Origin: Methanobacteriota archaeon | Lineage (GTDB): Archaea; Thermoplasmatota; Poseidoniia; Poseidoniales; Poseidoniaceae | Length of the DNA stretch: 18,085 nt | Reading direction: 5' to 3' | NCBI GenBank assembly: GCA_002719475.1 | Contig: PBHQ01000048.1 | Coordinates: 1 to 18,085 of the forward strand | Part shown: piece after piece, positions 1 through 15,503 of the stretch | How the letters are laid out: every line of letters starts with the position of its first letter | Position numbering within the stretch: position 1 is the first letter of the stretch | The notes under the pieces: generated by a model | Databases searched by the model: none | Seen by the model: the letters and a program-made list of their open reading frames with translations, nothing else | What the model was told of the DNA's origin: nothing | Translations under genes and position numbers: made by a program

Positions 1-882
1 AGTGCCGCTATTTCCGACATCTTGCCATTCGCCATCGTCAATTTTGATTTCATAATAATCAATGCCACTGCCTCCAGAATCGCTGGCTCCACTAGATATC
101 CCTGATACTGAAACGGTATTCGAGTCCACCCAACCAGTCGATGAAGCGCTGGGAGTTCCTACACTCGGGCCAGTGCGATCGATTCCCATGTGTAGCGTCT
201 CAGAGGCAGAGAGTCCTGAATCATCGAATACGCTCAGTCGAGGGCTCCATTTTCCTTCTTGTAAGTCCCCATTGGTCCAGTTCCAAGTGTAGGCAAGACT
301 TCCAGGGCCATCATTTGTCGGACTACCTGGGCCGGGTACATTAGACAGGCTTGCGTAAGATAGGTCATCGTCATCTGCCGACCAATTGAAAATCAAAGTT
401 CCATTTGCTGGCGTCTTTGTCCATGCCCTATTGCTTGGGGACGAGCCATCTCCAACTACAACATCAGCCAGAGTGAAAGCTGTAATCACTGGTACTTGGT
501 TACTAATGGTGAAGTTCTCAGTACTGAACAGAGCGGTATTTTCTCCATCACTATCAACCCCTGATGCGCGTAATCTGTATGTTCCATTGTCTAGGTTGGT
601 TGTATCCCAGTAATATGTCCAAGGACTTCCGCCTGTAAGGGTAGTAAGGCTGGACCAAGAATTGCCATCGAACAGTTCTATTGTAAGGCTCGTCAGAGTT
701 GCACTTCCTGATGTAGAGAATTGAAGTGTATAGGTTCCAACAATTGAATCTCCGGTATCAGGGCCATTACTGAATGAGATTGTGACATCACTGTCTCGCG
801 CTCCAGTAGCTTGTGCAGGTATCGGCAAAATGGATGTGACAAGTAGCATCGCGAGAATCATGCTGAGATAGTGACGACGCAT
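1..882 (-). CDS. Secreted Ig-fold surface protein, N-terminal part (runs off left edge)
   Basis: An open frame without stops runs from an ATG at 882 down to base 1, giving 294 residues of an incomplete protein. Residues 1-26 form a signal peptide: MRRHY, then a hydrophobic stretch ending in a PAQA-like cleavage site. The rest is rich in Ser, Thr, Gly, Asp and Asn with regularly spaced Trp and Tyr, as in tandem beta-sandwich modules. One segment, from about residue 30 to 128, reads like a CARDB or bacterial Ig-like unit (GTYTLQF, then WDTTNLDNGTYRLR). A later one, beginning DRTGP near 239, resembles adhesin-type Ig repeats. It is probably an exported surface protein or adhesin whose anchor lies outside the window. 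No catalytic motif is visible. It is head to head with the large surface protein at 1010. The frame is secure, but the exact family is not recognised. Confidence 0.8.
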   Translation of the reverse strand, partial: MRRHYLSMILAMLLVTSILPIPAQATGARDSDVTISFSNGPDTGDSIVGTYTLQFSTSGSATLTSLTIELFDGNSWSSLTTLTGGSPWTYYWDTTNLDNGTYRLRASGVDSDGENTALFSTENFTISNQVPVITAFTLADVVVGDGSSPSNRAWTKTPANGTLIFNWSADDDDLSYASLSNVPGPGSPTNDGPGSLAYTWNWTNGDLQEGKWSPRLSVFDDSGLSASETLHMGIDRTGPSVGTPSASSTGWVDSNTVSVSGISSGASDSGGSGIDYYEIKIDDGEWQDVGNSGT

Positions 883-1009
883 GCTAACAGAGAGTACACG
901 GCGCGCCTCGGCCTTGAATCCTTGCCAAGTCGAGAAGTCGCCTATGGCGACCTCTGAGGTGTATGTGGAGCGGCAGGGTTCAAGTGCCACCCAGCAAGTG
1001 AACGGTACA
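883..1009. promoter_or_regulatory. Divergent intergenic region between two surface-protein genes
   Basis: These 127 bases separate the minus-strand start at 882 from the preferred plus-strand start at 1010, so both promoters should lie here. I see no convincing TATA box at the expected distance from either start. The region is GC-richer than its flanks. Confidence 0.4.
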
Positions 1010-3826
1010 ATGGGTCGCCGCACGTCAGCATGCGCTGTCATGATTCCCGTCCTTTTGTTGCTCGTTTCAACGGCAAGTTTGATCTCTGTAAAGGCAGAGT
1101 CTAGCGGCGGCATCAATGCCTCATCTTCGAGTATCGGATTGGTACCTAGTGAACCAAAAATGGGCAATTCTGTAGAGATTCGCTTGACTTTGGAAAATAG
1201 TAACGCCTTTGATGCAAATAATGTAGAATATCGCTTCTACAAAGATGGAATATCAGCCTCGTCAAAATTCTGGGAGAATATTGTGAACATTCCAGCAGGA
1301 GAAACGACTGAAGTTTCAGCAACTTGGAGTGCCCTTACCGAAGGAGAACACCAAGTTTGGGTAGAGATTGAATATGGTGGAGATGCGCCAGCCTCTTTCT
1401 TCAAATCGTTCACAGTAAGCGGCTTAGCTAACCTTCAGGTGGCGAGCTCCAGTATAAGTCCGGAATCTGGAATCAGAGAGGGAGACAACGTCGATGTCAA
1501 CGTCGAGATTGAGAATTCTGGAACTGTAGCCTCATCTTCCAGTACCTTGTTTATCGGTATCGAGGGCTTGCCTTCACTAGACCAGAATCTTGCTGTTGCA
1601 GCCCTCAATGCTTCGGAATCAGTTTGGGTGAATACTTCCTTCGTTGCTCCAGTTAGTGGAGATCATACCATCGTCATACTTCCAGATGTGAATGGTGAAG
1701 TCGAAGAAGTCGTAGAAAATGGTAAGGAGATTCGCGAGACCTTGACAGTTGATCCAGAACCGGATTACCTGCATTCTGGAGACCTTACCGTATCTACTCC
1801 TGAGAATTCTATACGTGGAGATTGGGAAGTTAGTGGGGTTGTCATGCGTAAGCATGCTAGTGGGAGTAATGATGTAGCCCTTGGCTTCAGTTTCCCTGAA
1901 CATACCGGTTCCCCTATTGTTATTCAACCAATTACTGTAACCTTATCTGGGAATACAGATGAAGTCACTCAGTCATGGAATACCAATCTCTCTTGGGAGA
2001 CTATCCAGGGCCTTGGAGAAGGACAGCATCTCTTGCAGGTCACCATCGATCCAAGTTCCTTGCTCGAACAAGCGGTCACCAGCAATGATATCGCCAATGT
2101 AATCATTGAGGTAAGACCTGTACCCAATGTCTTCCTTGACCAGTACGCTATACCATCTTCGACAAGTGTTGAGGCTGGAGCCGATGTTGAATGGCGCGTT
2201 TCGATATTGAATACTGGGGATATACCAGTATCAGGTGGCCTTAATGTCGAATGGGAGGGAAGTACGACATACTACGAAATCAATGAGATAGCTGCTGGAG
2301 CATCGTACATCTGGACTGAAACTTTGGCAACATTGTCCACGGGTGCTCATCAAGCAACCTTCCGAGCAACTTGGCAAGCAGCAGAAGGATCCTATGACTC
2401 CGATGAAGCGGATAGCGTTGCTACAGGAAGTATTGAGGCCAAGACCACATTGAATATGCAATTCTCGATGTCGACTGTTGAACTAGTTGGTAGCAACGGA
2501 CTACCGGCCACCCCACCATTAGACCCTGGTGTCTATACTCTGAGTATTCAATTGACTTCATCGGGATTGGGCGAGACCGTCCTAATCTGTGAAGATGTAA
2601 CTGGAGGTGTAAGCAAGACCTTGTTCACTCAGGATGTCAATATCTCACAAAGAGGAGACAAGGTTGATCACGAATGTGTCTTCGACACCGAGGACCGTTC
2701 TTCGGTCATCATCAATATCCGTAGTTCTGACAACACGGTCATCACAGTTCCCTTCAACAAGGGATACAATGTTGATTTAGCACAAGGTGAAGGATTTGAA
2801 GAGAATGCAAATACCACTGGTACGGTGCTATTGTTTGGATTCGCTGCTTTACTTCTCATTGGCGTATTGGTAGCAGCGGTAATATTGACGCGCCGAGTCT
2901 TTGGGGAAGTTGAGAGGGACATCTACGAATATTGTCCAGCCTGTGAAGGCGAGATAGAGGGCTATGAGGACAAGTGTCCGCATTGTGATTTCAACCTCAA
3001 ACGAGCCCGCAGAAGATTCCACGACTGTGTAGATTGTGGCGAAAACATTCCAAGTTTGCTTGAGAACTGCCCATATTGTGGTTCTGTTCAAGACCTACGC
3101 AGTCAATTCCAAGCTAGAGAGCGAAAGCAGATGATCGCATTACCTGAAGAGACAGAGGAGCCTGTTGAGGAAGAAGAAGATGAGGATGAGATTGTTGCAG
3201 GCACTGAGGACTTTGACAGCATGGCTGGAGAATTTGGCTATGATGAGGATGGTCTTGAGAGCGAATGGGACGAGAGCCTGCAAGAAGCGGAAACTGAGAT
3301 TGATGAGATGTTGGAACGACAGGCTGCTGTTACAGAAATTGAAGGTCAAACTGAGGATGAAGAAGGGCCGGTCGCTGCTGTGCCGAACATCTCAACTCCT
3401 GAATCGATGATGTCTGGAGTAGACCTTGATGAAATGTTGGGCGACAAGAAAGAACGTAGGCACTTGGTTGACGCTGGAGATGATGGGCAAGTCCTTGATG
3501 CGAGCGATGCAGAAATCAGAGGTGACTTGTTCGAAATCACCGGAGAGTCAGGAGTATTGCCTGGCGAGGATGTAATTATCGGAATGGGTGTGCAGGATCA
3601 CCGTCTAGTAGGAAATGAACTGCCTGAAGAAGCGATGGACTTCTCCTTCGAGGATGATGGTTTGGAACCTGCTCTAGAAAAGCGTAGGCGAATCGCTTCT
3701 CGACGCAAGGAACAGAGTGAAGCAAAACAAGATACTGCTGAACAGGTTGGCGAGTGTGGTGCTTGTGGAGCTGACATTGCAGTTGATGCAGATGAATGCC
3801 CTACTTGCGGCGCTCGCTTTGCATGA
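1010..3826 (+). CDS. Large type I membrane surface protein: Ig/CARDB-like ectodomain, one TM helix, cytoplasmic zinc ribbons
   Basis: The start at 1010 is preferred because MGRR followed by a hydrophobic core and VKA gives a clean signal peptide (residues 1-29), which the longer frame from 881 would bury. The product is 938 residues. About five beta-sandwich modules follow at roughly 35-138, 139-250, 252-370, 371-478 and 479-590. Modules 1, 2 and 4 show CARDB-like features such as VEIRLTLENS, VDVNVEIENSG and VEWRVSILNTGD. One membrane helix lies at about 605-627, followed by basic residues. The cytoplasmic part has two adjacent zinc ribbons (Cys642, 645, 656, 659 and Cys673, 676, 687, 690), a roughly 200-residue acidic low-complexity region, and a third ribbon at the end (Cys916, 919, 930, 933). 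CARDB modules are known for adhesion or ligand binding outside cells. Joining them through one helix to zinc ribbons suggests a receptor or an anchored scaffold; that role is inferred. Confidence 0.85.
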   Translation: MGRRTSACAVMIPVLLLLVSTASLISVKAESSGGINASSSSIGLVPSEPKMGNSVEIRLTLENSNAFDANNVEYRFYKDGISASSKFWENIVNIPAGETTEVSATWSALTEGEHQVWVEIEYGGDAPASFFKSFTVSGLANLQVASSSISPESGIREGDNVDVNVEIENSGTVASSSSTLFIGIEGLPSLDQNLAVAALNASESVWVNTSFVAPVSGDHTIVILPDVNGEVEEVVENGKEIRETLTVDPEPDYLHSGDLTVSTPENSIRGDWEVSGVVMRKHASGSNDVALGFSFPEHTGSPIVIQPITVTLSGNTDEVTQSWNTNLSWETIQGLGEGQHLLQVTIDPSSLLEQAVTSNDIANVIIEVRPVPNVFLDQYAIPSSTSVEAGADVEWRVSILNTGDIPVSGGLNVEWEGSTTYYEINEIAAGASYIWTETLATLSTGAHQATFRATWQAAEGSYDSDEADSVATGSIEAKTTLNMQFSMSTVELVGSNGLPATPPLDPGVYTLSIQLTSSGLGETVLICEDVTGGVSKTLFTQDVNISQRGDKVDHECVFDTEDRSSVIINIRSSDNTVITVPFNKGYNVDLAQGEGFEENANTTGTVLLFGFAALLLIGVLVAAVILTRRVFGEVERDIYEYCPACEGEIEGYEDKCPHCDFNLKRARRRFHDCVDCGENIPSLLENCPYCGSVQDLRSQFQARERKQMIALPEETEEPVEEEEDEDEIVAGTEDFDSMAGEFGYDEDGLESEWDESLQEAETEIDEMLERQAAVTEIEGQTEDEEGPVAAVPNISTPESMMSGVDLDEMLGDKKERRHLVDAGDDGQVLDASDAEIRGDLFEITGESGVLPGEDVIIGMGVQDHRLVGNELPEEAMDFSFEDDGLEPALEKRRRIASRRKEQSEAKQDTAEQVGECGACGADIAVDADECPTCGARFA

Positions 3827-3989
3827 ATAAGGCCTGTCTGCACTCATAGGGTTCGTCATCACCCGAAGGCTCGGCTGACCCTCTTTGCTTCATTCAGGCG
3901 GGATTGCCAGTAGCACTTCATTCAAGAAGCCTGTGAAGAAATCCACTTCAACGCGGCTTTGATACGGGATGTGCGTCTCGCGATTGTCG
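3827..3989. promoter_or_regulatory. Intergenic region with possible lipoprotein promoter
   Basis: No gene is visible in these 163 bases. A weak TATA-like stretch (TTTGATAC) at about 3957-3964 is roughly 26-30 bases before the ATG at 3990, which fits a leaderless message from that codon. A CTTCATTCA word occurs twice (3889 and 3918 areas) without evident function. Confidence 0.3.
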
Positions 3990-4553
3990 ATGGGAAGGGC
4001 ACTCTTGTCGCTTTCAGCAGTAATTCTGCTGTTCATTTCAAGCACCCTTGCAGGGTGTCTTTCGTTAGTTCCAGCGCGTGAAATGATGGAGTCTCTACGC
4101 GATAAGCCGCAGATTGAAATGACCGAAGACAAGGTGAATATCAGCCATGTTTTCGATTCTCTCGATATCTCACAGACCCTTTCGCCTTATACTGCAGATA
4201 GAATCATCGAAATGAATGCCAGCGCCAATGAAATGCAGATATACTTCCGCGCCACCATGCCCACCAGTGGTTTCACCAGCGATATCTCCAATTCAATAAG
4301 ATATGTCGATGCTAGATTGCTCAGACCAGATGGCAGTGTATATTGGGAAACTCATGTGACCGCATCAAAATCTCCAGTGGATAATTTTGCGGAGGGGCCT
4401 TTCGATGAGGGTGAATGGAAACTAGAAGTCGAAGCTAGAGGCATCGGAATCGATGTTGGTGGAGTTGCTGTAAAGGATGATTTCGTGGTAATTGTGACCG
4501 TTCGTAGGGAATGTGTCATTTTCCCGACTGAAGATATTTGTGTCATTGAATGA
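3990..4553 (+). CDS. Small predicted lipoprotein
   Basis: From the ATG at 3990 the product is 187 residues. The N-terminus is a lipoprotein signal: MGR, a hydrophobic core, then the lipobox LAGC with the lipidated Cys at residue 23 (codon at 4056). An alternative start at 3969 adds seven residues ahead of the signal. The mature part has no recognised domain. Segments such as the one around YFRATMP and the late EGEWKLEVEARG look like beta strands of a single sandwich domain, so it may be a small surface binding or accessory protein. It follows the zinc-ribbon surface protein on the same strand after about 160 bases, so it probably has its own promoter. Function unknown. Confidence 0.75.
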   Translation: MGRALLSLSAVILLFISSTLAGCLSLVPAREMMESLRDKPQIEMTEDKVNISHVFDSLDISQTLSPYTADRIIEMNASANEMQIYFRATMPTSGFTSDISNSIRYVDARLLRPDGSVYWETHVTASKSPVDNFAEGPFDEGEWKLEVEARGIGIDVGGVAVKDDFVVIVTVRRECVIFPTEDICVIE

Positions 4554-4622
4554 TGTTTAGTGCCCTTATTTTGGCCGTGAAAACAAACAGCGGTTCAAAT
4601 AGGCAAATCTCCTGAGAGGTAC

Positions 4623-4850
4623 ATGCAGTGCAATATCGGAGAGAAGGGTAGAGAAGTCCGCATGAAAGGTGGAATCGCTACCATTCTGGGAGCGATTTTT
4701 GTATCGATATTGACCTTTACAGGCGCCCTTAGCGGTGCAATTGGATGGTTTGCAGCGATCTCGATGTTCTTTGGTGGTGCCTTTGCAGTTTTTGAGGCCC
4801 GTAAGGGATGGTGCATTATCAGGGCCATGGGAATCAAGACGCCATTGTGA
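4623..4850 (+). CDS. Small two-helix membrane protein
   Basis: The frame encodes 75 residues from the ATG at 4623, or 62 from an internal ATG at 4662. Two hydrophobic Gly/Ala-rich segments at about residues 17-35 and 40-58 should cross the membrane as a hairpin. The C-terminal tail (EARKGWCIIRAMGIKTPL) is basic and looks constrained rather than random. GAGAGG just before 4623 resembles a ribosome-binding site, and AAATA near 4596-4600 could be a TATA element for a leaderless start at 4623. I do not recognise the family. The coding call rests on the clean membrane topology, position in a same-strand run, and lack of a better frame opposite. Confidence 0.6.
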   Translation: MQCNIGEKGREVRMKGGIATILGAIFVSILTFTGALSGAIGWFAAISMFFGGAFAVFEARKGWCIIRAMGIKTPL

Positions 4851-4934
4851 GGTATTTGATTCCAAAAATGCGCTAGAATAGCTTTGATTGCCCATTTTCG
4901 CTGATTTAGATTTCATGGCTTTCAACAGCACTTC

Positions 4935-4940
4935 ATATAC
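4935..4940 (+). promoter_or_regulatory. TATA-like box for the gene at 4962
   Basis: ATATAC is centred about 25 bases before the ATG at 4962, the spacing expected of an archaeal TATA box driving a leaderless transcript. An AGAGG lies between them. Confidence 0.4.
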
Positions 4941-4961
4941 TAAAGAGGTTGCACGCAACTC

Positions 4962-5180
4962 ATGGTCGACATGAACAACGTCATCTATGTGTTGAGCGGT
5001 ATTCTCATCGTTCTTTCGTTGCAGTTAGTCATTCGTAATCTCCGCAAGAGAAAGTACCGATCTGAGAACATCTGGCATGTTCCAAGTTTGCCTTCCAAGT
5101 CAAGGCGAAGCAAGCGCAAGGCTAGGATGCCTGCACAACCACAGGTTCCGCCACCTGCTTACATGTTCAGGCAACGCTGA
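4962..5180 (+). CDS. Small single-helix membrane protein with basic, proline-rich tail
   Basis: This is a 72-residue product. Residues 6-24 form one membrane helix (NVIYVLSGILIVLSL region), followed at once by a strongly basic stretch (RNLRKRKYR), so the tail is probably cytoplasmic. The tail has a second basic cluster and ends in a Pro/Gln-rich segment with PPP. A TATA-like box at suitable spacing supports expression. A second ATG at 4971 is possible. The gene ends 12 bases before the convergent lipoprotein gene. Family not recognised; a membrane-tethered adaptor or nucleic-acid contact is conceivable from the charge, but nothing shows it. Confidence 0.5.
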   Translation: MVDMNNVIYVLSGILIVLSLQLVIRNLRKRKYRSENIWHVPSLPSKSRRSKRKARMPAQPQVPPPAYMFRQR

Positions 5181-5192
5181 AATCATTGGAAA

Positions 5193-7034
5193 TCACTGGT
5201 TGTTAGCAGCATCCGGTGATTGTGGGGTAATCAGCACATTATCTCCGGTTCTTTCAATCAGAGGTAGTTCAGCAGTTGACAATGAAGGCAGTACATGGAT
5301 AGTGCAAGCATTTCCACAAGCAGGTGCGAGGTAATCTTCGCCTTGTTCAGATAGAATGAATCTGATACCGTGTCCTGCTGGAAGAATTGCATCGATGCCT
5401 TGGAATTCCATCATCATCGTGACCTGTTGACCAGGAACTACCGTTTGTGGCTCAGAACCACCCGCATGATATCGAATATCCATCGTGGCGTGCCCGAGGC
5501 GCAATCCCGTCTCGGCATCTTGCATTTCAACGAATATTTGGCCTCCATCAAAGGTTGGAACTGTAATCAAATGGATGGTAGCTAAGCCTGCGATGTGAAG
5601 TGGCTCCATTTCATTTAGAGCAGAACATTCGATGGTAATTGTTTGTCCTCCACCTACCACTGGGGCGCCTCCTCCTGTAAACACGCCATCATATTCACAA
5701 TCAGAAAGATCGATTGCATGTCTTTCGACATCGTGGGGAGGCCAAGTCTCTTCGATTCTCCACTGCCCATCATTGCGCTGAATTTGAGCGTTTAATTCGG
5801 GTTTGGGACCGATCCCTTTGAGGTAGTATTCGTACCATTCAAACAAGTCCTGGGCCCAATCCCAGCGAGTCATGTTGTGGATGGCTTCCCCGCCATATCC
5901 ACTATCCTGATTGTTGTGTTTAGTCCACTGATCAGGATAATTGTGTTCCCATTGCCCGAGGATTCCTCTGACTTCGAAGCCTGCGTCGATGTAGTCCTGA
6001 TACCAATTGTAACCGATTGGGCCACTGAATACTTGGTGAGGATCGACATTCCAGTCTTGCATACCTTGTACCCAGTACACTGAACCATTCCAATTCTCGA
6101 AGGCTTTGTCGATATGACTGCGTTCTTCGTAATAATTCTCCATGTATGGGTCAAGTTCTCCCATTCCGTAGGTCACAGGTCCAGCGAACAGACCTTCTAC
6201 AATATCTGGACAGACATTGTCCAAGTCGTCTTCGTTGTAATCGACCGTACTGGAGAAATAATTCATGTGCATGACTTGAGATCTGGCTTCTGCACTTCCA
6301 TTCTTGTACAGTAATGGATGTAATGCAGTAGTTCCGGAAATAGGTACGATGGTTTTGAGGTATTCACTTCCAAGAGCAGCAGCTTCCCATTGTGTCGCCC
6401 CTTCGTAGGATTTTCCATATAGGCCAACATGTCCATTGCTCCAGTTCTGAGAGCCCAGCCATTCAACTGCGTGGTGAATGCCAAGACCTTCTCCAGCACC
6501 TCTGTAATCGAAGCAGCCGCTGGAAAGTTCGGTGCCAAAGACCGCTACTTGTGCAAAGGCATAGCCGTGAGGTATGAAATTCTCATAGATGAATTCACCA
6601 CGGCCTGCTCCAACGATTCCAGTATGTCCGGATTCGTCACCGGGCTGGCCGTATGAGAAATAGGGGCTTATGACAGCGATGACAGGAACCTTCTCTCCTT
6701 GTTCGGTGTTGCTCGGTAGCCAATATGAGAGATGTACTTCCGACTCTGCAGGGCCGGTTTCCCATATCGAACTTGTATCGACCGTAATGTAGGCCTCTTG
6801 GACTTCCAAAGCATGGTGCGGTCCATCCTCAAGGACACGAGCAAAGGAATGTGTCATATTCCATTCTAGTTGGTGCCTATCCCAGATACTTGGGTAAATG
6901 ATTGACTCCTCAATCACTTCATGCTTGGTATGATTGACGATACAGCCTGCAAGGGAACATGAAAGGACGATGAGCACCAAAGACATCGCCAGTTGTCGCT
7001 TCCCCATAGTGAGTGCGAGTAGATGGACAGTCAT
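5193..7034 (-). CDS. CocE/NonD-family hydrolase lipoprotein (X-Pro dipeptidyl-peptidase S15 type)
   Basis: The product is a 613-residue predicted lipoprotein with the lipobox LAGC (Cys31; Cys22 if the internal ATG at 7007 is used). It belongs to the alpha/beta hydrolase family of CocE-like esterases and X-Pro dipeptidyl-peptidases. The nucleophile is Ser209 in GKSYEG. The acid is Asp327 in the GMQD segment and the base is His364 in GQWEHN, giving the expected order Ser-Asp-His. The C-terminal third, from about residue 440, looks like the jelly-roll domain typical of this family. The N-glycosylation-like NWS/NGS sites, the export signal and the length all fit an enzyme acting at the cell surface on peptides or esters; exact substrate cannot be read. 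A TATA-like palindrome at 7058-7070 favours the start at 7034 as leaderless. It diverges from the CoA-transferase. Confidence 0.88.
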   Translation of the reverse strand: MTVHLLALTMGKRQLAMSLVLIVLSCSLAGCIVNHTKHEVIEESIIYPSIWDRHQLEWNMTHSFARVLEDGPHHALEVQEAYITVDTSSIWETGPAESEVHLSYWLPSNTEQGEKVPVIAVISPYFSYGQPGDESGHTGIVGAGRGEFIYENFIPHGYAFAQVAVFGTELSSGCFDYRGAGEGLGIHHAVEWLGSQNWSNGHVGLYGKSYEGATQWEAAALGSEYLKTIVPISGTTALHPLLYKNGSAEARSQVMHMNYFSSTVDYNEDDLDNVCPDIVEGLFAGPVTYGMGELDPYMENYYEERSHIDKAFENWNGSVYWVQGMQDWNVDPHQVFSGPIGYNWYQDYIDAGFEVRGILGQWEHNYPDQWTKHNNQDSGYGGEAIHNMTRWDWAQDLFEWYEYYLKGIGPKPELNAQIQRNDGQWRIEETWPPHDVERHAIDLSDCEYDGVFTGGGAPVVGGGQTITIECSALNEMEPLHIAGLATIHLITVPTFDGGQIFVEMQDAETGLRLGHATMDIRYHAGGSEPQTVVPGQQVTMMMEFQGIDAILPAGHGIRFILSEQGEDYLAPACGNACTIHVLPSLSTAELPLIERTGDNVLITPQSPDAANNQ

Positions 7035-7057
7035 GAATGGTGCGCCGAATTGTTGTC

Positions 7058-7070
7058 CTGTAATTTACAG
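7058..7070. promoter_or_regulatory. Perfect 13-base palindrome in divergent promoter
   Basis: CTGTAA-T-TTACAG is a perfect inverted repeat around one central base. Read leftward it holds TAAATTAC centred about 30 bases before the ATG at 7034, suitable for a TATA box. Read rightward it lies about 75 bases before the CoA-transferase start at 7139. It may be a bidirectional TATA element, an operator, or both. Confidence 0.4.
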
Positions 7071-7138
7071 TGATTCGTTGTAAGAAATCATTGTCAACCG
7101 AGTTGAATGCTTTTCGACCGATGAGTTCAGGGTGCTTC

Positions 7139-8182
7139 ATGAGCGGAATCTTACAGGGCATTAGGGTACTCGACCTTTCACGTATTCTAGCGGGTCCTTA
7201 TACAGCGCAAATGTTGTCAGATCTCGGCGCAGAAGTGACCAAGGTTGAGGCGCCTTGGGGCGATGATACGCGCGGTTGGGGTCCTCCTTTCACAACAGAT
7301 TTTGATGGTCAACGAGTTGCAGCCTACTTCTTGTGCTGCAATCGTGGTAAGTCGATTCTACAAATGAACTTGAAAGAAGAAAAGGAACGATTACTCAAGA
7401 TGATTGAGGAAGTAGACGTTGTCATCGAGAACTTCAGACCTGGTACCTTAGAGAGGTTGCTTGGTAATTTGCCAAAGGATACCATCATCTGTTCGATATC
7501 AGGTTATGGTGCATCAGGACCGCGCCGAGATGAACCAGGATATGACCTCGCTCTACAGGCTCGTAGTGGCATCATGAGTATTACAGGGGGTGCAGATGGT
7601 CCGCCTGCAAAGGTAGGCGTCGCTTGGATTGACATTATCACAGGACTGTATGCTGGAAACGCCATCCTTGCCGCTTTGCTTGATTACGAAAGAACAGGTC
7701 GAATTCGACACATCGATATCAGCCTCTGGGATTGTGCGATTGCATCGCTCGCCAACCAAGCACAGAATGTTCTTGCCAGTGGACAAGACCCAGTGCGAAT
7801 GGGCTCTGCACACCCTAACCTCGTTCCATATCGCGCCTTCGAGGCATTGGATGGTTGGTTCGTGGTAGCGATTGGTTCAGATCCACAATGGCAGGAATTT
7901 TGCAGCATTGCGAAAATCAAATCTCAAGATGAGTGGAAGAATAATGCAGGAAGAATTGCACATCGAAATGAGATTGAAGCAAAGGTTCAGCAATGGGTAG
8001 GAGGGCACAGTAGGGGAGAACTTGAAGAGATGCTTGCTGGCATTCCTTGTGCTCCAATCAATACAGTTTCCGAAGCCTTGAACGATGCTCAGAGCCAAGC
8101 GAGAGGTGCCCTATTGAATGAAGGCGGAGTGACGACATTAGCCAGTCCATTGCGTTTCATGGATGTTCAAGATAGAGCCTGA
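7139..8182 (+). CDS. Class III CoA-transferase (CaiB/BaiF family)
   Basis: The start at 7139 is preferred because MSGILQGIRVLDLSR matches the usual beginning of the family and GGGTG lies just upstream as a possible ribosome-binding site. The frame itself is open from 7070. The 347-residue product carries the family signatures RVLDLSRILAGP, LSDLGAEVTKVE, VVIENFRPG, and PGYDLALQA with the catalytic Asp136. Members move CoA between carboxylic acids or, in the racemase branch, epimerise 2-methylacyl-CoA. The sequence alone does not fix which. The length is slightly short for the family (commonly about 380-400), and the C-terminal end overlaps the last 16 bases of the convergent PLC-like gene. Its role is probably cytoplasmic acyl-CoA metabolism, which fits the hydratase/dehydrogenase fusion elsewhere in the window. 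Confidence 0.9.
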   Translation: MSGILQGIRVLDLSRILAGPYTAQMLSDLGAEVTKVEAPWGDDTRGWGPPFTTDFDGQRVAAYFLCCNRGKSILQMNLKEEKERLLKMIEEVDVVIENFRPGTLERLLGNLPKDTIICSISGYGASGPRRDEPGYDLALQARSGIMSITGGADGPPAKVGVAWIDIITGLYAGNAILAALLDYERTGRIRHIDISLWDCAIASLANQAQNVLASGQDPVRMGSAHPNLVPYRAFEALDGWFVVAIGSDPQWQEFCSIAKIKSQDEWKNNAGRIAHRNEIEAKVQQWVGGHSRGELEEMLAGIPCAPINTVSEALNDAQSQARGALLNEGGVTTLASPLRFMDVQDRA

Positions 8183-9297
8183 TCACCGAGCAAATTTACG
8201 CGCCGTGCTGCTTCAACAACATCACCATCTTCCCACCAATCGACAGCGATGAAGGTTGGCCTTTTGCCATGTTGTTCCATACATTCAATCGCTCGGTCAA
8301 CCATGAAATCCACATCATTGGCTTCAGCAGAACGAGTGGGGTCTGATAGACCAGCCTGATTTTTCAGCCAATTGTTCATGTGAAAAACAACCTGATTTGA
8401 GTCTCCTCGTAAAGGGTCGCAGTCCATTGATTCAGTATTATCATCAGCATAATTTGTAGTCCATCCAAAAGTCAAGAAATCATGAAAATACGGGTGCGCT
8501 GACTCTCCGGATTGTTCCCAGAACACAACCAATCGCTTGTCCATGTTAATCAGATCGATGAGAGTGGGCCATTCCGCATTCAATTCATGGACATACATCC
8601 AATCAGATAGTCCAACATCGTCGAACAATTCCTTGAGATGGTCTCCTTCTACGTGGTTTTCTATCAGTAGAGTCACGACATCTCTGTCCTCGCTATTCAT
8701 TCCTGATTTCAATTTATTCAGCCACTGCCATGGGTCAACTGCACCATAGGTGCATGGACTGAATCCTCTGTCTGGGTCACCGTGGCAGAACCGAACTGCC
8801 GAAGCACTTAGGTCCGCACTAGTGAGGTAATGCGTATCCAACATGAAAGCCCTCATTCCAGCATCCCATTGAGCCTGAAATCCAGTTCTATGGTTGCTCG
8901 CTGGGTAGTAGATGTTGTCTTCATGCGTTGAGAAGGAATTGTGCGTTTCCGGAAAGGTCACTTGATCATAGGTTCTGTGACATAGGTCGATCATCCCATT
9001 GCAAGGCTCGGTCTCCTTATACCAACATGAACCATCATCCTCTGTGGCCGACTCGTTGTAATTCTCAGCATCGCTATCTGTACAGCCCAAGACAGGTTCA
9101 GGTTCTTCGTATTCGCAACTTCCGTCATCCTCTTCTGCTTCTGGATTATGATTCATTGCTTCAGGGTCTGTACACCCTTTGACCAAGGGTGTGACTTCCC
9201 CTTTCTCCTCCGTCTCTTCAACAATATTGTCCTCAAGAAAGGTACATCCTGAAAGTAGTAGCAAACTGGCCATGATGAATACGGCCAAAGTTCGCAT
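8167..9297 (-). CDS. PLC-like phosphodiesterase lipoprotein with two GCTD repeats
   Basis: From the ATG at 9297 the product is 376 residues with a lipoprotein signal ending in LLSGC (Cys18). That start is preferred over 9348 because the signal peptide begins there and a TATA-like TTTATTG lies about 21 bases upstream. Two tandem 23-residue repeats at 41-63 and 71-93 follow the pattern GCTD..A.N.N..A..DDGSC.Y, a disulfide- and Asp-rich surface motif common in marine microbes. The C-terminal domain from about 110 resembles the PI-PLC X-type TIM barrel, with ETHNSF (His119) and FCHGD (His172) as the two catalytic histidines and FMLDTH between them. Such enzymes cleave phosphodiesters by general acid-base chemistry. 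Anchoring outside the cell suggests use of phospholipid head groups or lipid anchors; that substrate is inferred. The 3' end overlaps the CoA-transferase by 16 bases. Confidence 0.82.
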   Translation of the reverse strand: MRTLAVFIMASLLLLSGCTFLEDNIVEETEEKGEVTPLVKGCTDPEAMNHNPEAEEDDGSCEYEEPEPVLGCTDSDAENYNESATEDDGSCWYKETEPCNGMIDLCHRTYDQVTFPETHNSFSTHEDNIYYPASNHRTGFQAQWDAGMRAFMLDTHYLTSADLSASAVRFCHGDPDRGFSPCTYGAVDPWQWLNKLKSGMNSEDRDVVTLLIENHVEGDHLKELFDDVGLSDWMYVHELNAEWPTLIDLINMDKRLVVFWEQSGESAHPYFHDFLTFGWTTNYADDNTESMDCDPLRGDSNQVVFHMNNWLKNQAGLSDPTRSAEANDVDFMVDRAIECMEQHGKRPTFIAVDWWEDGDVVEAARRVNLLGDQALS

Positions 9298-9313
9298 GTA
9301 ACAAATCGAGGAG

Positions 9314-9324
9314 TTTATTGATTT
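9314..9324 (-). promoter_or_regulatory. TATA-like box for the PLC-like lipoprotein
   Basis: On the minus strand AAATCAATAAA lies about 18-27 bases before the ATG at 9297, consistent with a leaderless or nearly leaderless transcript, and argues for that start over 9348. Confidence 0.4.
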
Positions 9325-9340
9325 GAACACTCCGCAACTC

Positions 9341-9496
9341 TCAATCAAATGAGTGCTTGCATTCTGGGCAGATTGATGATGTAGCTGGAATCATCTTTGC
9401 ACACTCTAGGCATGCAACTTCTTCTTCTGAATCATTTGAAGCATATTCAGCAATATCATCTTCATCCGCATCACTGGCATCAGACCTCGTGTCGCC
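9341..9496 (-). other. In-frame continuation after the sirtuin stop: acidic linker plus zinc ribbon without a start codon
   Basis: Directly after the TAA at 9497-9499 the same frame stays open for 51 codons before a TGA at 9341. The translation begins GDTRSDASDADEDD, continues acidic through NDSEEE, and ends in a zinc ribbon with two CxxC pairs (CLEC and CPEC, 13 residues between pairs) and the terminus KHSFD. This composition is typical of real acidic-linker/zinc-ribbon tails, such as those of the surface protein at 1010. No ATG, GTG or TTG precedes the ribbon in this frame after the TAA, and an upstream start would be cut by the stop. It is therefore best read as a C-terminal part of the sirtuin separated by a stop codon through mutation, readthrough or sequence error, or as a small gene with an unusual start. 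Confidence 0.6.
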
Positions 9497-10222
9497 TTAG
9501 GCTAGCCATCCTTCAACCAAATCAGGTAATATCTCGCCGGCTTTACCTTGGTGAAATTCATCGTGTCCATCAAAGTTCATCGGTTTGTCAAGATTAATCC
9601 CAACACAAGTTGCACCGCGTGAACCTGCGAGATATATCAGATCTGAAGCAGGTGAGACATGCCCACTAGTTCCGATAGTCATGAATATGTCACAATTTTC
9701 TACGGCTTGAAATATTTCTTCCAATTGGAAAGGCATTTCATGAAACCATACAATATGTGGCCTTAGTCTGTCGCGCCCGCAATCTGGACAAGCAACATAG
9801 TCACCGGTCAGGTGCCCCTCTTCCATCATCTCAAAGACGCCTGCGCACCCTTCGCATCGCAATTTGCGTAGTTCACCATGCATGTGAATAAGATTTTGTG
9901 AACCGGCCCTGCTATGTAAGTCATCTACATTCTGAGTAATTAGCAGGAATTCTTCGCCGACGTGTTGTTCCAATTTCACCAATGCATTATGAGCAGGATT
10001 TGGCTCTACATCGAGAAGTTGTTCTCGCCTTCTTTGGTAGAAATTCCAAACAAGCTCAGGGTTTTCTTTCCAGGCATAAGGGGTTGCAACATCTTCGATA
10101 GCATAATTTTCCCATAGCCCGTCGGAGGCGCGAAAAGTTTCGATTCCAGATTCAGCGCTAATTCCTGCACCAGTCAAAATTACCACTTTGGTACCGGATT
10201 TGATTTTGAGCATACAATCCAC
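9497..10222 (-). CDS. cobB: Sir2-family NAD-dependent protein deacylase, SIRT5/CobB-like
   Basis: The 241-residue product shows all sirtuin landmarks in order: GAGISAESGIETFR (NAD binding, residues 18-31), TQNVDDLHSRAG (96-107), catalytic His115 before GE, four zinc Cys (123, 126, 145, 148), and TIGTSG (182-187) and GIN (208-210) for NAD. Tyr62 and Arg65 in FYQRRRE match the Y-x2-R pair that lets SIRT5 and bacterial CobB accept succinyl- or malonyl-lysine. The likely reaction is therefore removal of acyl groups from lysine with use of NAD, in the cytoplasm; acetyl and short acidic acyl groups are both possible. An alternative start is at 10213. It lies 17 bases after the membrane nuclease gene, so the two are probably co-transcribed. 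The stop is followed in frame by a stranded zinc-ribbon tail. Confidence 0.92.
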   Translation of the reverse strand: MDCMLKIKSGTKVVILTGAGISAESGIETFRASDGLWENYAIEDVATPYAWKENPELVWNFYQRRREQLLDVEPNPAHNALVKLEQHVGEEFLLITQNVDDLHSRAGSQNLIHMHGELRKLRCEGCAGVFEMMEEGHLTGDYVACPDCGRDRLRPHIVWFHEMPFQLEEIFQAVENCDIFMTIGTSGHVSPASDLIYLAGSRGATCVGINLDKPMNFDGHDEFHQGKAGEILPDLVEGWLA

Positions 10223-10239
10223 CTCATCGAACCTTATCT

Positions 10240-11406
10240 TCAGATCAATGCCTCAGGACATGCCCTCCTCCTTGAACAATTCTTGCATTTTCCTTGACGT
10301 TCGTGATTACGTTTTGCCCCACCTTCAACCATCAGCCGTTGTACTTCTTCAAGTTGGTTCATCAGTAACTTGTCATGGTCTTCATCCCATTCGACTTTGT
10401 GAATGTCATTTTCACCATATCTTAGAACTCCGAAAGAGGGTTTGTGTCCAGTCACCACCTTGACCAGATGTATGTATGCCAATAACTGCACCTTATGCGA
10501 CAAGTGGGGATGCTTTGGGATTCTCCCAGTCTTCTGCTCCATCGGAATGAACTCTCCATCAACGATGACGATTTGATCAGGCCTTCCACGCAATCCAGTA
10601 TTTTTGTCAATCAATAAATCAGCAGCCTTGGAGTCATCGCTGTAAGCGATTTTGATATCCTTATCCAAACCCGCTTGATGTCTCGCTTCTTCCATGTCGT
10701 TTCCGGCAATCAATGCTCTTTGCAGTCGCCATGATGCCAATAGCGTCCAAAGCATGGCGGCAGAAAGCAGAATGAATCCAGCGTGTGTTGTTTCCTCCAC
10801 AGTCCAGAGAGCAGCAGCGTGAAGAATTAGCAAAATGGCTCCCAATCCAAAGGCTGCTTCGACTTTACCTCCTGCAACCCATCCTCCAATGAATCCTGGT
10901 CCTTGAATCATCCCGGCGATGTTTTTTGCATCGATACCATCTTTTCCCACAGCGGCTTCAGCAGCAGTTGGCCAATTCAACCATTTTCGCCACGGAAGAA
11001 TTGTGCTGGCCATCATTGCCCCAACCCAGACCACAGCTAGAAGTGCTAGATATCGTGCCAAAACTTGGGGGGACATTTGATCAGCTAAGAGATACCATGC
11101 AACTGCATCTATGGTCAATGCAACGACGATTCCGAACCACCAACCCCACACTGTTAATTCTTTGACCACTGACACTCTGGCATGTTCATAACTCGCCATC
11201 TGCTGATGGATTTGCGCGTGCTCCTCAACCCCTCTGGATACTGCTTCGCCCCTGCCAGAAATACCTCGTCTAGCCAATTCCCAAGATAGAGGGCAATAGG
11301 TATGTCTTTCAAGGTCAGATGCTGAAACGTGCAAGGCTTCCCCTCCTTTATCTCGCCAAATCCCGTCTTCTCCTCGGGTCGCATCAATCAATTCCAATTC
11401 AGACAT
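10240..11406 (-). CDS. Cas4/RecB-like PD-(D/E)xK nuclease with four inserted membrane helices
   Basis: The 388-residue product has the layout of a Cas4/AddB-type iron-sulfur nuclease split by a membrane block. Near the N-terminus are HTYCPLSWELA with Cys38 and a G-x3-H motif (GVEEH, His63) matching RecB motif I. Four hydrophobic helices lie at about 86-107, 118-139, 183-203 and 209-226. The catalytic core then resumes: GRPD (Asp277), PMEQKTG (Glu290 and Lys292), and the QLLAY motif (Gln307, Tyr311). The C-terminus has CKNCSRRRAC (Cys374, 377, 383), which with Cys38 would ligate a 4Fe-4S cluster. Soluble Cas4 proteins are about 200 residues; the excess here is the insert. Activity on DNA ends is expected from the family; membrane location is inferred. 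There are no cas genes or CRISPR repeats nearby. The TATA-like box at 11431 fits leaderless expression. Confidence 0.85.
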   Translation of the reverse strand: MSELELIDATRGEDGIWRDKGGEALHVSASDLERHTYCPLSWELARRGISGRGEAVSRGVEEHAQIHQQMASYEHARVSVVKELTVWGWWFGIVVALTIDAVAWYLLADQMSPQVLARYLALLAVVWVGAMMASTILPWRKWLNWPTAAEAAVGKDGIDAKNIAGMIQGPGFIGGWVAGGKVEAAFGLGAILLILHAAALWTVEETTHAGFILLSAAMLWTLLASWRLQRALIAGNDMEEARHQAGLDKDIKIAYSDDSKAADLLIDKNTGLRGRPDQIVIVDGEFIPMEQKTGRIPKHPHLSHKVQLLAYIHLVKVVTGHKPSFGVLRYGENDIHKVEWDEDHDKLLMNQLEEVQRLMVEGGAKRNHERQGKCKNCSRRRACPEALI

Positions 11407-11576: not shown

Positions 11577-12182
11577 ATGAGTGAAGGGGCAACACTGGTG
11601 TCTGAAGAGACATACGAGTTATACGCGGTTCACATCGGTACTCAACAGAAGTCTGCAGACATGAAGCAGTTCATCTCGCATGTTCGCAGTGATGGCCTTT
11701 ACCTCTTGGATTTGGGTATAACCGACGGCAGGATTCGTTCCATCGCCACCTTCCTCAACAGATACGATGCTCAGAGAGTAATGGTGGTCAGCGCTCGTCA
11801 GTATGGTCAGCGCCCAGCCCGCAAGTTTGCAGAGGCGATTGGCGCCATCAGTGCTGTTGGACGATTTATTCCAGGCAGTCTGACAAATCCCATTCTACCA
11901 TCGTATAGAGAGCCCGAGGTTCTGTTCGTGACCGACCCGGCTGCCGATCAGCAAGCATTGAGTGAGGCCGTAAACAGTGGATTGCCGATTGTAGGAATCT
12001 GTGATGCCAATAACAATCTCCGAAATGTCGACCTTGCCCTGCCTGCTAACAATAAGGGACGTCGAAGTCTCGCTCTACTGTATTGGTTATTGGCAAGAGA
12101 AGTTCTCAAGCAGCGCGGCACTATGGATGATGAGACTTGGGCCGAGATGAATCCTCTAGAGGATTGGGAATCTACCTTCTGA
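11577..12182 (+). CDS. rpsB: 30S ribosomal protein uS2
   Basis: The 201-residue product is a clear archaeal/eukaryotic-type uS2. Recognisable blocks are VHIGTQQKSADMKQFI near the start, SDGLYLLDL, ARQYGQRPARKFAEA, GRFIPGSLTNP, VLFVTDPAADQQALSEA, and LALPANNKGRRSLALLYW. The length matches archaeal uS2 (about 200) and lacks the bacterial coiled-coil insertion. The protein sits on the small subunit between head and body and helps join uS1-like factors and mRNA. The ATG at 11577 starts at the expected N-terminus. No other ribosomal gene, enolase or RNA polymerase subunit gene is adjacent, although many archaea keep rpsB in such a cluster. The stop codon abuts the convergent dus stop with no spacer. 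Confidence 0.97.
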   Translation: MSEGATLVSEETYELYAVHIGTQQKSADMKQFISHVRSDGLYLLDLGITDGRIRSIATFLNRYDAQRVMVVSARQYGQRPARKFAEAIGAISAVGRFIPGSLTNPILPSYREPEVLFVTDPAADQQALSEAVNSGLPIVGICDANNNLRNVDLALPANNKGRRSLALLYWLLAREVLKQRGTMDDETWAEMNPLEDWESTF

Positions 12183-13158: not shown

Positions 13159-14286
13159 TCAGGACATCGCTTTATCCAGCATTTCGGCCACGCGCTTGAT
13201 TCTACGTAGAACACGGTCTAATCGGGTCATTATTTTGGCAGAGGTTGAGACAGGATCAGATCCGATCATTCGATGCCCGAGAGGTAAGCGACCACCGAGT
13301 AGGTTAAGCAGCAACATCTGATCATCTAAAGATACTCCACTCAGTTCCTTTTCCACTAAATCGACATTCAATTTGCCTTTTGCCATAGCCTTAGTCAAGG
13401 TCTCAATCGCCCGATCTGGAACGATTCTATTGAAACCTCCTTTGAGCAGAATCCAATCTTCTCCTCGACGTTTGTATTGGGTCATCATTGCATTCCATAG
13501 ATTCGCAGGTAAACGGTCAGTTCGAGGGACCCTTTCGACTATTCCAGCAGACCTGAAGCGTTCCAGAATTCTTCCTATACGGGCCTTGGGGCCTTTGAGT
13601 TCTGCTGCTGCTTCATCTAGAGAAAGTGGTGGCCCTCTCTGCAACAATATCTGCATCAACCTAACAGGTAATGAATCGGCTGCGAGTTTTGCTCCAGGTC
13701 TATCGCCTAACAATCCGAGATCCGCCATCCAAAGACTCAGTTCACTCACCTTCTCTACCGGTGGTAACGGCCTTGGTTCGTTGATCCATATGACAAGAGG
13801 AGATTCTCTATCGGGACTTGCCATCTCCATTTTCAACGAGGGATCTTCTGGTCTTTGCCACCACCCCTCGAGTCGAGACAATTGGAGTTTGAGAATCTGC
13901 GTTGCTTCATTGGCCAGAAGTTCGACAGCCGCGCTCAAAGTTCCCGCTCTTAGGAAGTGCCTTCTCCATCCATCTCCTTGACTGCGACTAGAGATCAGGC
14001 GACATGCTGCAAGACGGGTGATGTGATGATGTAAAGAGGCAGCAGTCATGCCCATCTGGTCAGCAAGCGTACCAGCATCTACACCCTGTTTGGGGTTGGC
14101 GAGAATATGTTCTCTGAGTAATCGTACTACTGGCTGCATACGGTCCCCATCAGCATGTTCTTCTCCCCGTCGGCGAACTAAACCGAAGGTTGCTACCAGC
14201 CAATCAATCAATTGATCGACATTATCTCGACTGGTAGGAAGAGGATGCTCCTCTAACCTCAATTCGAACATGGCACAAGGGCCCAT
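13159..14286 (-). CDS. Double winged-helix transcriptional regulator (ArsR-like)
   Basis: The 375-residue product has two DNA-binding modules. The first, at about 50-105, is an ArsR-like winged helix (LADQMGMTAASLHHHITRL recognition region, then a wing with SRSQGDGWRRH). The second lies at about 207-256 (DEAAAELKGPKARIGRILERF, then ERVPRTDR). Between and after them are mostly helical segments without recognised ligand motifs. A TATA-like box about 29 bases before the ATG at 14286 supports that start; an internal ATG at 14271 is the alternative. It sits between two other winged-helix genes upstream and dus downstream with a 19-base gap. It is probably a sequence-specific regulator; target and signal are unknown. 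Palindromes beside its promoter hint at autoregulation. Confidence 0.8.
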   Translation of the reverse strand: MGPCAMFELRLEEHPLPTSRDNVDQLIDWLVATFGLVRRRGEEHADGDRMQPVVRLLREHILANPKQGVDAGTLADQMGMTAASLHHHITRLAACRLISSRSQGDGWRRHFLRAGTLSAAVELLANEATQILKLQLSRLEGWWQRPEDPSLKMEMASPDRESPLVIWINEPRPLPPVEKVSELSLWMADLGLLGDRPGAKLAADSLPVRLMQILLQRGPPLSLDEAAAELKGPKARIGRILERFRSAGIVERVPRTDRLPANLWNAMMTQYKRRGEDWILLKGGFNRIVPDRAIETLTKAMAKGKLNVDLVEKELSGVSLDDQMLLLNLLGGRLPLGHRMIGSDPVSTSAKIMTRLDRVLRRIKRVAEMLDKAMS

Positions 14287-14300
14287 GGCGAGGCACCTTC

Positions 14301-14330
14301 AACATGTTGTCAATAAAGGACGAATATTCG
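14301..14330 (-). promoter_or_regulatory. Promoter with flanking palindromes upstream of the double winged-helix gene
   Basis: A TATA-like CTTTATTG on the minus strand at about 14311-14318 lies between two perfect palindromes: CGAATATTCG (14321-14330) on its upstream side and AACATGTT (14301-14308) on its downstream side. The spacing to the ATG at 14286 fits a leaderless transcript. Binding of a dimeric regulator to either palindrome would affect promoter access. Confidence 0.4.
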
Positions 14331-14346
14331 ACGTTTCCTGCAACGG

Positions 14347-15045
14347 TCAGCGCTGCCGTTCGTCTTCCCATTCATAGCCAAGTTCGGACATCTCTTTGTT
14401 GTCATCAATCAGATGTGGTGCTAATGCGAGTTCGTCTTGTCTGAGGATACCTCTTCTGCGCAGAACCTTGATGGCGCTGTGAACAGTTGCTCTAGTACGC
14501 CCAAGTTGTCTCGCAAGAGCAGCTTGAGATTTCGGAGGTTGTCCTTTCTTCAATTCCTCTACGATCAGTTTCTGTACCAGGGATAGGCCAACAGGTAAGC
14601 GCTTTGCGGCTTCTTCTGAATCAACCATGACTCCTCCTAGAATTTCGACCTGTGCAGGTCCTCCAGCGAAGTAGCAGGTGCGACCATTAACTGATACTGC
14701 GGTAATGGTCATTTGAGATTGTAGGACGTCTAGGTGATGTCTCAAGGTGCCATTGGCCGCATTGAGTGCCTTCTGTAGTTCTCTGTAGCATAGTCCGGGA
14801 CTATCTTCCAAGGTGACGAGAATCCTTCTGCGCATTGGGTGTTCATAGGCTAAAACTTGCGTAGAAATCGTACCTCTAGCACCCCACGTCCAAGGCATTG
14901 CTGCATTGGCAATACCGACTACTCCTCCAACCAAACCGGTCAGTCCAGCGGTTAACCAAGGCCGCTGTCGCATCCATTGTTGGAGCAGTGCCATACAAGC
15001 GACTCGCAGTCCATCCCAATTCAAACTGCCGCTTAGATGAATCAT
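14347..15045 (-). CDS. Two-module winged-helix regulator with possible membrane tether
   Basis: The 232-residue product begins with a short basic/Trp-containing region and a moderately hydrophobic Gly-rich stretch at about 31-52 (LTAGLTGLVGGVVGIANAAM), which may be a membrane helix. A winged helix follows at about 66-128 (EHPMRRRILVTL, YRELQKALNAANGTLRHHLDVL), and a second at about 155-205 (QAALARQLGRTRATVHSAIKVLRRRGILR). The start at 15045 overlaps the stop of the HxlR gene in an ATGA arrangement, so translation is likely coupled. Membrane-bound winged-helix regulators are known in archaea, but the hydrophobic segment here is weak and could instead be a soluble helix. The targets cannot be read. 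Confidence 0.78.
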   Translation of the reverse strand: MIHLSGSLNWDGLRVACMALLQQWMRQRPWLTAGLTGLVGGVVGIANAAMPWTWGARGTISTQVLAYEHPMRRRILVTLEDSPGLCYRELQKALNAANGTLRHHLDVLQSQMTITAVSVNGRTCYFAGGPAQVEILGGVMVDSEEAAKRLPVGLSLVQKLIVEELKKGQPPKSQAALARQLGRTRATVHSAIKVLRRRGILRQDELALAPHLIDDNKEMSELGYEWEDERQR

Positions 15046-15503
15046 CCATCTAAGCGCTTAATTGACCCCGTTTGCATCTTCAGATGAGCAACCAAAGGAG
15101 ATAGTAACCTACCACATATCTTGCCATGATTTGTAAGGTTGTATTCCACCTTGATGGGTGGCCCATCCTCAACGGTCCGCTCTACAAGGTTCTCATCGGC
15201 GAGAAAGCGCAATTTGTCGGAAAGAGTACGACTGGAAATGCCTTCCAATAAATGCTTGAGTTGATTGAAGCGCTTTCCTCCAGTGATGTATAATGCGGCT
15301 AAAATTTCGATGGTCCATCTGCTGCCGAATACATGTAATGCTTCCACAGCAGCCTGAACTTCCCATTTTTCATCCCAAGGGTGTTTTCCTGAGAATTCAG
15401 CCAGAATGTTGCGAATGTGACCACCGTTAGCAATGGTTGCAGAGACATGTGTCTCTATGTCTGTAAGGCTATCTTTTGGAATTTCCATCGCTGGTTGCGG
15501 CAT
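15042..15503 (-). CDS. HxlR-family transcriptional regulator
   Basis: The 153-residue product contains the HxlR winged helix from about residue 55 to 145. Landmarks are GSRWTIEILAAL, RFNQLKHLLEGISSRTLSDKL, and the wing and post-wing part with VEYNLTNHGK. The N-terminal 50 residues are extra relative to the usual roughly 110-residue members. The start at 15503 is supported by an AGGTGA ribosome-binding site four bases upstream; 15488 is an alternative. HxlR proteins act as dimers and often answer to aldehydes, oxidants or other small reactive compounds, but no Cys-based sensor is obvious. It is the first gene of a unit with the tethered winged-helix gene (4-base overlap), and it lies 70 bases downstream of the beta-oxidation fusion gene on the same strand. 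Confidence 0.9.
   Translation of the reverse strand: MPQPAMEIPKDSLTDIETHVSATIANGGHIRNILAEFSGKHPWDEKWEVQAAVEALHVFGSRWTIEILAALYITGGKRFNQLKHLLEGISSRTLSDKLRFLADENLVERTVEDGPPIKVEYNLTNHGKICGRLLSPLVAHLKMQTGSIKRLDG

Follow-up and report, generated by a model that had tools for sequence, protein, structure and literature searches.

We report here that a gene in an 18,085-nt stretch of DNA of an archaeon of the Poseidoniaceae (contig PBHQ01000048.1, assembly GCA_002719475.1; this whole stretch is called the window below) probably encodes a solo-Cas4, that is, a CRISPR-independent PD-(D/E)XK nuclease of the Cas4 family with a probable 4Fe-4S cluster. Transmembrane hairpins interrupt its chain after the helix of motif I and before the GxPD strand, and we are highly confident of this architecture, a Cas4 fold split by membrane hairpins. 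Solo-Cas4 itself is already known; the membrane-embedded form is new, and no report of a membrane Cas4 was found in open-licence papers. The gene and the parts of its product are placed in the window as follows, with residue numbers referring to the protein.

10240..11406, minus strand: gene of the probable membrane-embedded solo-Cas4, 388 amino acids (open reading frame, Pfam, TIGRFAM profile, alignment, structure model).
11218..11325, minus strand: N-terminal Cas4 part, residues 28-63, with the iron-sulphur (Fe-S) ligand Cys38 and His63 of motif I, both invariant in the 75-row alignment described below; it falls inside the stretch superposed on Cas4.
10996..11151, minus strand: membrane hairpin 1, approximately residues 86-137 (hydropathy; model helices 54-107 and 113-136).
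10861..10995, minus strand: predicted cytoplasmic loop, residues 138-182, with a conserved GGW (G174, G175, W176 and G180 in 81/81 Poseidoniales-type rows).
10723..10860, minus strand: membrane hairpin 2, approximately residues 183-228 (hydropathy and model; related to the last hairpin of members from other Thermoplasmatota).
10243..10620, minus strand: catalytic core, residues 263-388, with D277, E290-x-K292 and Q307-x3-Y311 (Pfam, alignments, superposition).
10258..10287, minus strand: the C-terminal Fe-S cysteines Cys374, Cys377 and Cys383, in 75/75 rows.

In a Pfam scan of the window protein, Cas_Cas4 (PF01930) matched residues 267-383 at 1e-10 (42.4 bits against a cut-off of 22.7) and PDDEXK_1 also exceeded its cut-off (1.5e-9); EXO5 (PF09810) reached 13.7 bits, under its cut-off of 25. 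The TIGR00372 cas4 profile scored 64.4 bits, slightly under its cut-off of 65, and the top PADLOC matches were Cas4 models, the best at 3.9e-19. A chance origin is excluded by conservation, with 1146 homologues among the 8000 candidates scored.

An earlier note on this DNA had claimed a full set of Cas4-type residues, and every residue that it named is present and conserved across homologues. The catalytic and ligand residues are invariant in 23 close rows and kept in 79 to 81 of the 81 Poseidoniales-type rows. When 75 rows were drawn across the phylum, C38, H63, G274, P276, D277, K292, Q307, Y311, C374, C377 and C383 were found in all of them, with a spacing from H63 to D277 of 115 to 312 residues. 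Position 290 is Glu in 71 of these rows and Asp in four; with this substitution the PD-(D/E)XK site, comprising GxPD, ExK and QxxxY, is present in 75/75, as are, at the level of sequence, the four cysteines of the putative Fe-S cluster (one N-terminal, three C-terminal). Asp in place of Glu in the ExK motif (for example GDLKTG) was seen in loci L164, L166, L168, L171, L205, L211, L212, L216 and L230. Among 360 listed homologues (three lists of 120 matches each), no gap-free row has lost any of the ten ligand and active-site positions, and each position is gapped in at most one row. Loss of the catalytic residues in homologues, which the note had said would speak against it, was thus looked for in both sets and the residues were found to be kept.

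The membrane part appears as four family-averaged hydropathy peaks, at approximately residues 86-107, 117-137, 183-203 and 207-228. Segments were counted by hydropathy at a threshold of 1.3, with other genes of the same loci as controls. In the Poseidoniales-type loci, 66 of 81 Cas4-family proteins have four segments, 14 have three and one has five, and most control proteins have none (uS2 75/79, Dus 61/72, W12 61/64, W14 51/57). One control weighs against reading these peaks as membrane segments: W15, a presumably soluble protein (a dehydrogenase or hydratase by eye), shows two segments in 35/52. W13 shows one in 56/60. The threshold alone is therefore unspecific and no proof, since W15 and W13 are flagged as well; the median of the highest peak is 2.26 for Cas4 versus 1.61 for W15. 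Odd counts at 1.3 occur in 15/113 proteins, in 14 of which the weakest segment lies at 1.17-1.28, and the three-segment counts are borderline cases. At a threshold of 1.1, 111/113 proteins have two, four or eight segments and the remaining two have five; in one of these, L094, the extra peak sits in an added outer-loop domain. This protein belongs to a subgroup (L092-L095, Poseidoniia) with about 100 residues, including NGT/NGS-like sites, added in the outer loop between the first and second transmembrane segments (TM1-TM2). The added stretch of L092 has no Pfam match at E up to 0.01.

The earlier note had placed about 150 residues with four membrane helices between motif I and the core of this one protein. 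Membrane helices are indeed predicted there; the restriction to one protein and to four helices had to be corrected, because the hairpin module occurs with two, four or eight segments in Thermoplasmatota. In the class to which the related genome G001 belongs, 221/339 genomes matched the family; the other 118 had no match, and genomes may be incomplete. A short form, from small genomes that we infer to be MGIII-like, matched 249/389 phylum genomes when used as query, a count that takes in same-class members and in which weak matches may be ordinary Cas4. Outside the class we read 22 loci (L156-L177) and 52 further printed places (L201-L252), and membrane segments precede the core at the same place in 74/74. 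The 22 loci comprise six with two segments, 13 with four, one with three (borderline) and two with eight; the 52 comprise three with two, 41 with four, seven with eight and one with seven, in which the N-terminal Cys motif was not found. Among the listed homologues, list 1 holds 118 proteins with four segments, one with three and one with two, list 2 holds 120/120 with two, and list 3 holds 78 with two and 42 with four. Their names include Candidatus Poseidoniia, Candidatus Poseidoniaceae, marine group II/III euryarchaeote, Candidatus Thermoplasmatota and Thermoplasmata, and also 'Euryarchaeota' and 'Methanobacteriota' archaea. The family is broader than the note had implied, and many carriers are marine archaea.

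Some members deserve separate mention. In the eight-segment L172 (open reading frame 520-2475, plus strand) a TRAM domain (Pfam, 1.3e-10) is fused to the C-terminal end of the nuclease; TRAM is a domain of RNA-binding type. Genome G117 has a second, frame-broken copy on contig C6, and G003, G165 and G189 have second intact matches; all of these extra copies could be bin contamination. L005, from a record titled Deltaproteobacteria AH-558-G13, carries a Poseidoniales-type locus, which suggests that the record is mislabelled or contaminated.

How the module was multiplied can be partly read from the hairpins themselves. Hairpin 1 was aligned to hairpin 2 in 12 two-hairpin proteins of genomes outside the class; the mean score was 69.6, as compared with 27.5 for control hairpins, and 83% of the scores exceeded the control's 99th percentile. 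A profile comparison of the two hairpins outside the class gave a probability of 98% (E 1.2e-14). Judged by their sequences, the hairpins of these 12 proteins are tandem duplicates. Within Poseidoniales, likeness between the two hairpins can no longer be detected (probability 0.42%), and hairpin 2 is related to the last one of members from other orders (hhalign probability 85%). A tree of the core groups the architectures, but several changes are needed and the deep forks are weak, so that any order of hairpin gains and losses read from it would be tentative.

The number of segments is nearly always even (two, four or eight), and therefore both halves of the nuclease end on the same side of the membrane. 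In the structure model both halves are predicted to form one, whole Cas4 fold, with low predicted local distance difference test (pLDDT) scores at residues 156-172 and 174-176. The note's central claim, that membrane helices split a Fe-S nuclease of the Cas4/RecB type, thus held up in prediction and model, and its own worry that the N-terminal Cys/His and the core might be unable to meet was answered by the model, in which they do meet. The nuclease halves probably face the cytoplasm. Lysine plus arginine (K+R) counts are higher in the predicted inside regions than in the outer loops in 339/339 analysable proteins (of 360, 20 were dropped for missed patterns and one for an odd count). The inside regions are also longer; the contrast per residue is strong in two-segment forms and in other orders. 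What tells against this orientation is the Poseidoniales-type list, with K+R per residue of about 0.15 inside and about 0.14 outside; because this contrast is slight, the other architectures carry more of the case for the orientation. The added TM1-TM2 loop domain fits an outer location.

A CRISPR-associated Cas4 is encoded with cas1/cas2, which is not the case here. The note had seen no cas gene nearby, and this was borne out: none was found in a Pfam scan that covered 11 of the 16 neighbours in the window, and cas1 was found in 1/339 class genomes, the sole match being in G020 (L200), with a search that found cas1 in 9/14 known genomes, four archaea among them. The neighbourhood instead contains the following two genes.

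11577..12182, plus strand: ribosomal protein uS2, conserved divergent neighbour (TIGR01012, 7.8e-73).
3969..4553, plus strand: lipoprotein-like W2, without Pfam match, the convergent downstream neighbour in most relatives (adjoining in 77/80 loci) and non-adjacent in the window.

In 80 related Poseidoniales-type loci, uS2 adjoins the nuclease gene in 78 and the remaining two loci end there. On the other flank, two of the three loci lacking W2 end there and the third, L001, has Sir2, like the window. Pairwise-distance correlations are 0.761 for uS2, 0.871 for Dus, 0.938 for W12, 0.947 for W1 and 0.899 for W2. By these comparisons the gene is a core gene, vertically inherited in Poseidoniales, and it has both marks of a solo-Cas4, a position outside cas loci and vertical inheritance. 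Between W2 and the nuclease gene the window carries a lineage-specific block (4566-10222), with an S15-type peptidase (W5) and a CoA-transferase III (W6), each in 0/80 other loci, and the lipoprotein-like W7 (no Pfam match) and Sir2 (W8), each in 1/80. Three successive regulators adjoin Dus at 13159-15503 on the minus strand, W12 and W13 with helix-turn-helix domains (Pfam) and W14 by eye; they occur in 63, 59 and 56 of the 80 loci.

What might such a protein do? Our best explanation, which we put forward tentatively and rate a little short of probable, is that this membrane-split solo-Cas4 would be anchored to the cytoplasmic membrane on its inner face, would trim or degrade DNA ends there, and would follow a spatial logic of self and non-self like that of SNIPE, a bacterial membrane-bound anti-phage nuclease (PMC13190303). 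Anchoring would hold the nuclease away from the chromosome and at the site of entry of foreign DNA. For SNIPE this has been tested: its membrane anchor separates the nuclease from the chromosome and positions it at the phage DNA that is injected (PMC13190303). By analogy, a role in defence at the point of entry is possible, if somewhat doubtful. The most specific version, in which a Cas4 held in the membrane by one, two or four hairpin modules cuts entering viral or plasmid DNA and, as a core gene, spares the chromosome through its location, we consider unlikely as a whole. Several points weigh against defence at the membrane. No defence island was seen, the Poseidoniales neighbours being uS2, Dus and regulators, and none of the neighbour families in the 20 regions read from other orders occurred in more than six of them. 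No partner or trigger is known. The membrane location, the nuclease activity and the role are all putative, and conservation and vertical inheritance fit housekeeping equally well as defence.

Housekeeping is accordingly a strong rival, which we consider doubtful but serious: an end-processing nuclease resembling Dna2/EXO5, tethered to the membrane, unrelated to viruses and serving replication, repair or the handling of the chromosome there, which anchoring would concentrate at membrane-attached DNA. Conservation of the gene resembles that of its neighbours, and nothing pointing to an arms race was seen. However, housekeeping leaves the need for two to eight membrane segments unexplained, no recurring repair or replication neighbour was recognised in the regions read (the 20 from other orders without a Pfam scan), and the 118 class genomes without a match also count against it, with the same reservation about completeness.

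It is also conceivable, if quite improbable, that the hairpins sense a membrane signal (a ligand, the potential or a lipid) and activate the nuclease, leading to degradation of own or foreign DNA under stress. Polar residues in or at the membrane segments are conserved in the Poseidoniales-type rows (D100 78/81, E183 81/81, H196 79/81), a hint of an added function in these proteins, and in the same rows the fourth transmembrane segment is conserved like the core (entropy 0.89 vs 0.90). Long model helices (54-107 and 209-245) link the membrane part to the nuclease, and the enlarged outer loop of one subgroup would suit a sensor as well. However, other orders do not keep these polar residues (D100 47/75, E183 48/75, H196 46/75), many members have a single hairpin, and no regulatory partner is known.

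Processing of transforming DNA, a use that the earlier note had suggested, would suit a membrane location and DNA-end chemistry; it is weakened because ComEC (PF03772) was found in 0/339 class genomes, in a search whose control was positive in bacteria only (10/14 known genomes, all ten bacteria and no archaea), so that a diverged archaeal ComEC could escape it and other uptake systems lay outside it, and we regard this role as very improbable. Equally improbable are hydrophobic helices outside the membrane (a buried or misjudged insert), to which weak fourth segments (1.24-1.28 in 13 Poseidoniales-type proteins, 1.17 in L165) and family-averaged uncorrected insertion sums of -1.7 to about 2.4 at the four peaks would point, against nearly always even counts, strong peaks elsewhere of up to about 3.2 and short outer loops, and a catalytically dead scaffold, for which one Cas4 relative turned viral nucleocapsid protein is a precedent (PMC4625639), against the kept catalytic residues.

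Whichever role applies, an enzyme fold split by tandem-duplicating hairpins, with two to eight segments and the active site untouched, is an unusual architecture. The presence of a membrane-fixed form in every locus read across a broad sampling of one archaeal phylum restricts the role of solo-Cas4 to the handling of DNA at the membrane, which can be tested through topology, activity and deletion. The name 'CRISPR-associated protein Cas4', borne by some listed homologues, is misleading at least in this class, because cas1 is nearly absent from it.

Among known systems, the closest is solo-Cas4 as described previously, common in archaea, enriched in microbes of small genome that as a rule lack CRISPR-Cas, and of open role (PMC5704561). 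The present family shares with it the Cas4 fold, the PD-(D/E)XK site, the four Cys ligands, the absence of cas neighbours and vertical inheritance, and differs in the two, four or eight membrane segments inside the fold; in the main text of that paper the word 'membrane' appears once, within the name of another gene. Solved CRISPR Cas4 structures (7mi4, a Cas4/Cas1 fusion; 8d3l, type I-C; 4ic1, SSO0001; 4r5q, Pcal_0546) are chains of 190-218 residues or a fusion with no room for such an insert, whereas the present family has the insert and almost no cas1 in its class. Dna2 and AddAB/AdnAB are helicase-nucleases; compared with their nuclease domains and with EXO5, the present protein has no helicase and has a membrane insert. 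DruK of Druantia (PADLOC) matches through its PD-(D/E)XK domain (3.2e-10), a match limited to the core and weaker than that of the best Cas4 model. Zorya and Kiwa are likewise membrane-localised, DNA-targeting defences, but are multi-protein systems with separate membrane sensors (PMC12904381), and neither was among the PADLOC matches to the window protein. SNIPE, like the protein predicted here, consists of one nuclease anchored in the membrane, its catalytic domain lying in the cytoplasm, and serves as a model of how self-damage can be limited by anchoring. However, SNIPE as described is a GIY-YIG nuclease with DUF4041 and one N-terminal transmembrane segment, and is sparse, whereas the present family is widespread and vertically inherited; neither GIY-YIG nor DUF4041 was found when the window protein was scanned with Pfam at E up to 1. 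We therefore rejected the identification of this family with SNIPE, as fold, domains and spread differ. If the protein does cut entering DNA at the membrane, it would be an archaeal counterpart of SNIPE, built on an unrelated nuclease and spread through Thermoplasmatota.
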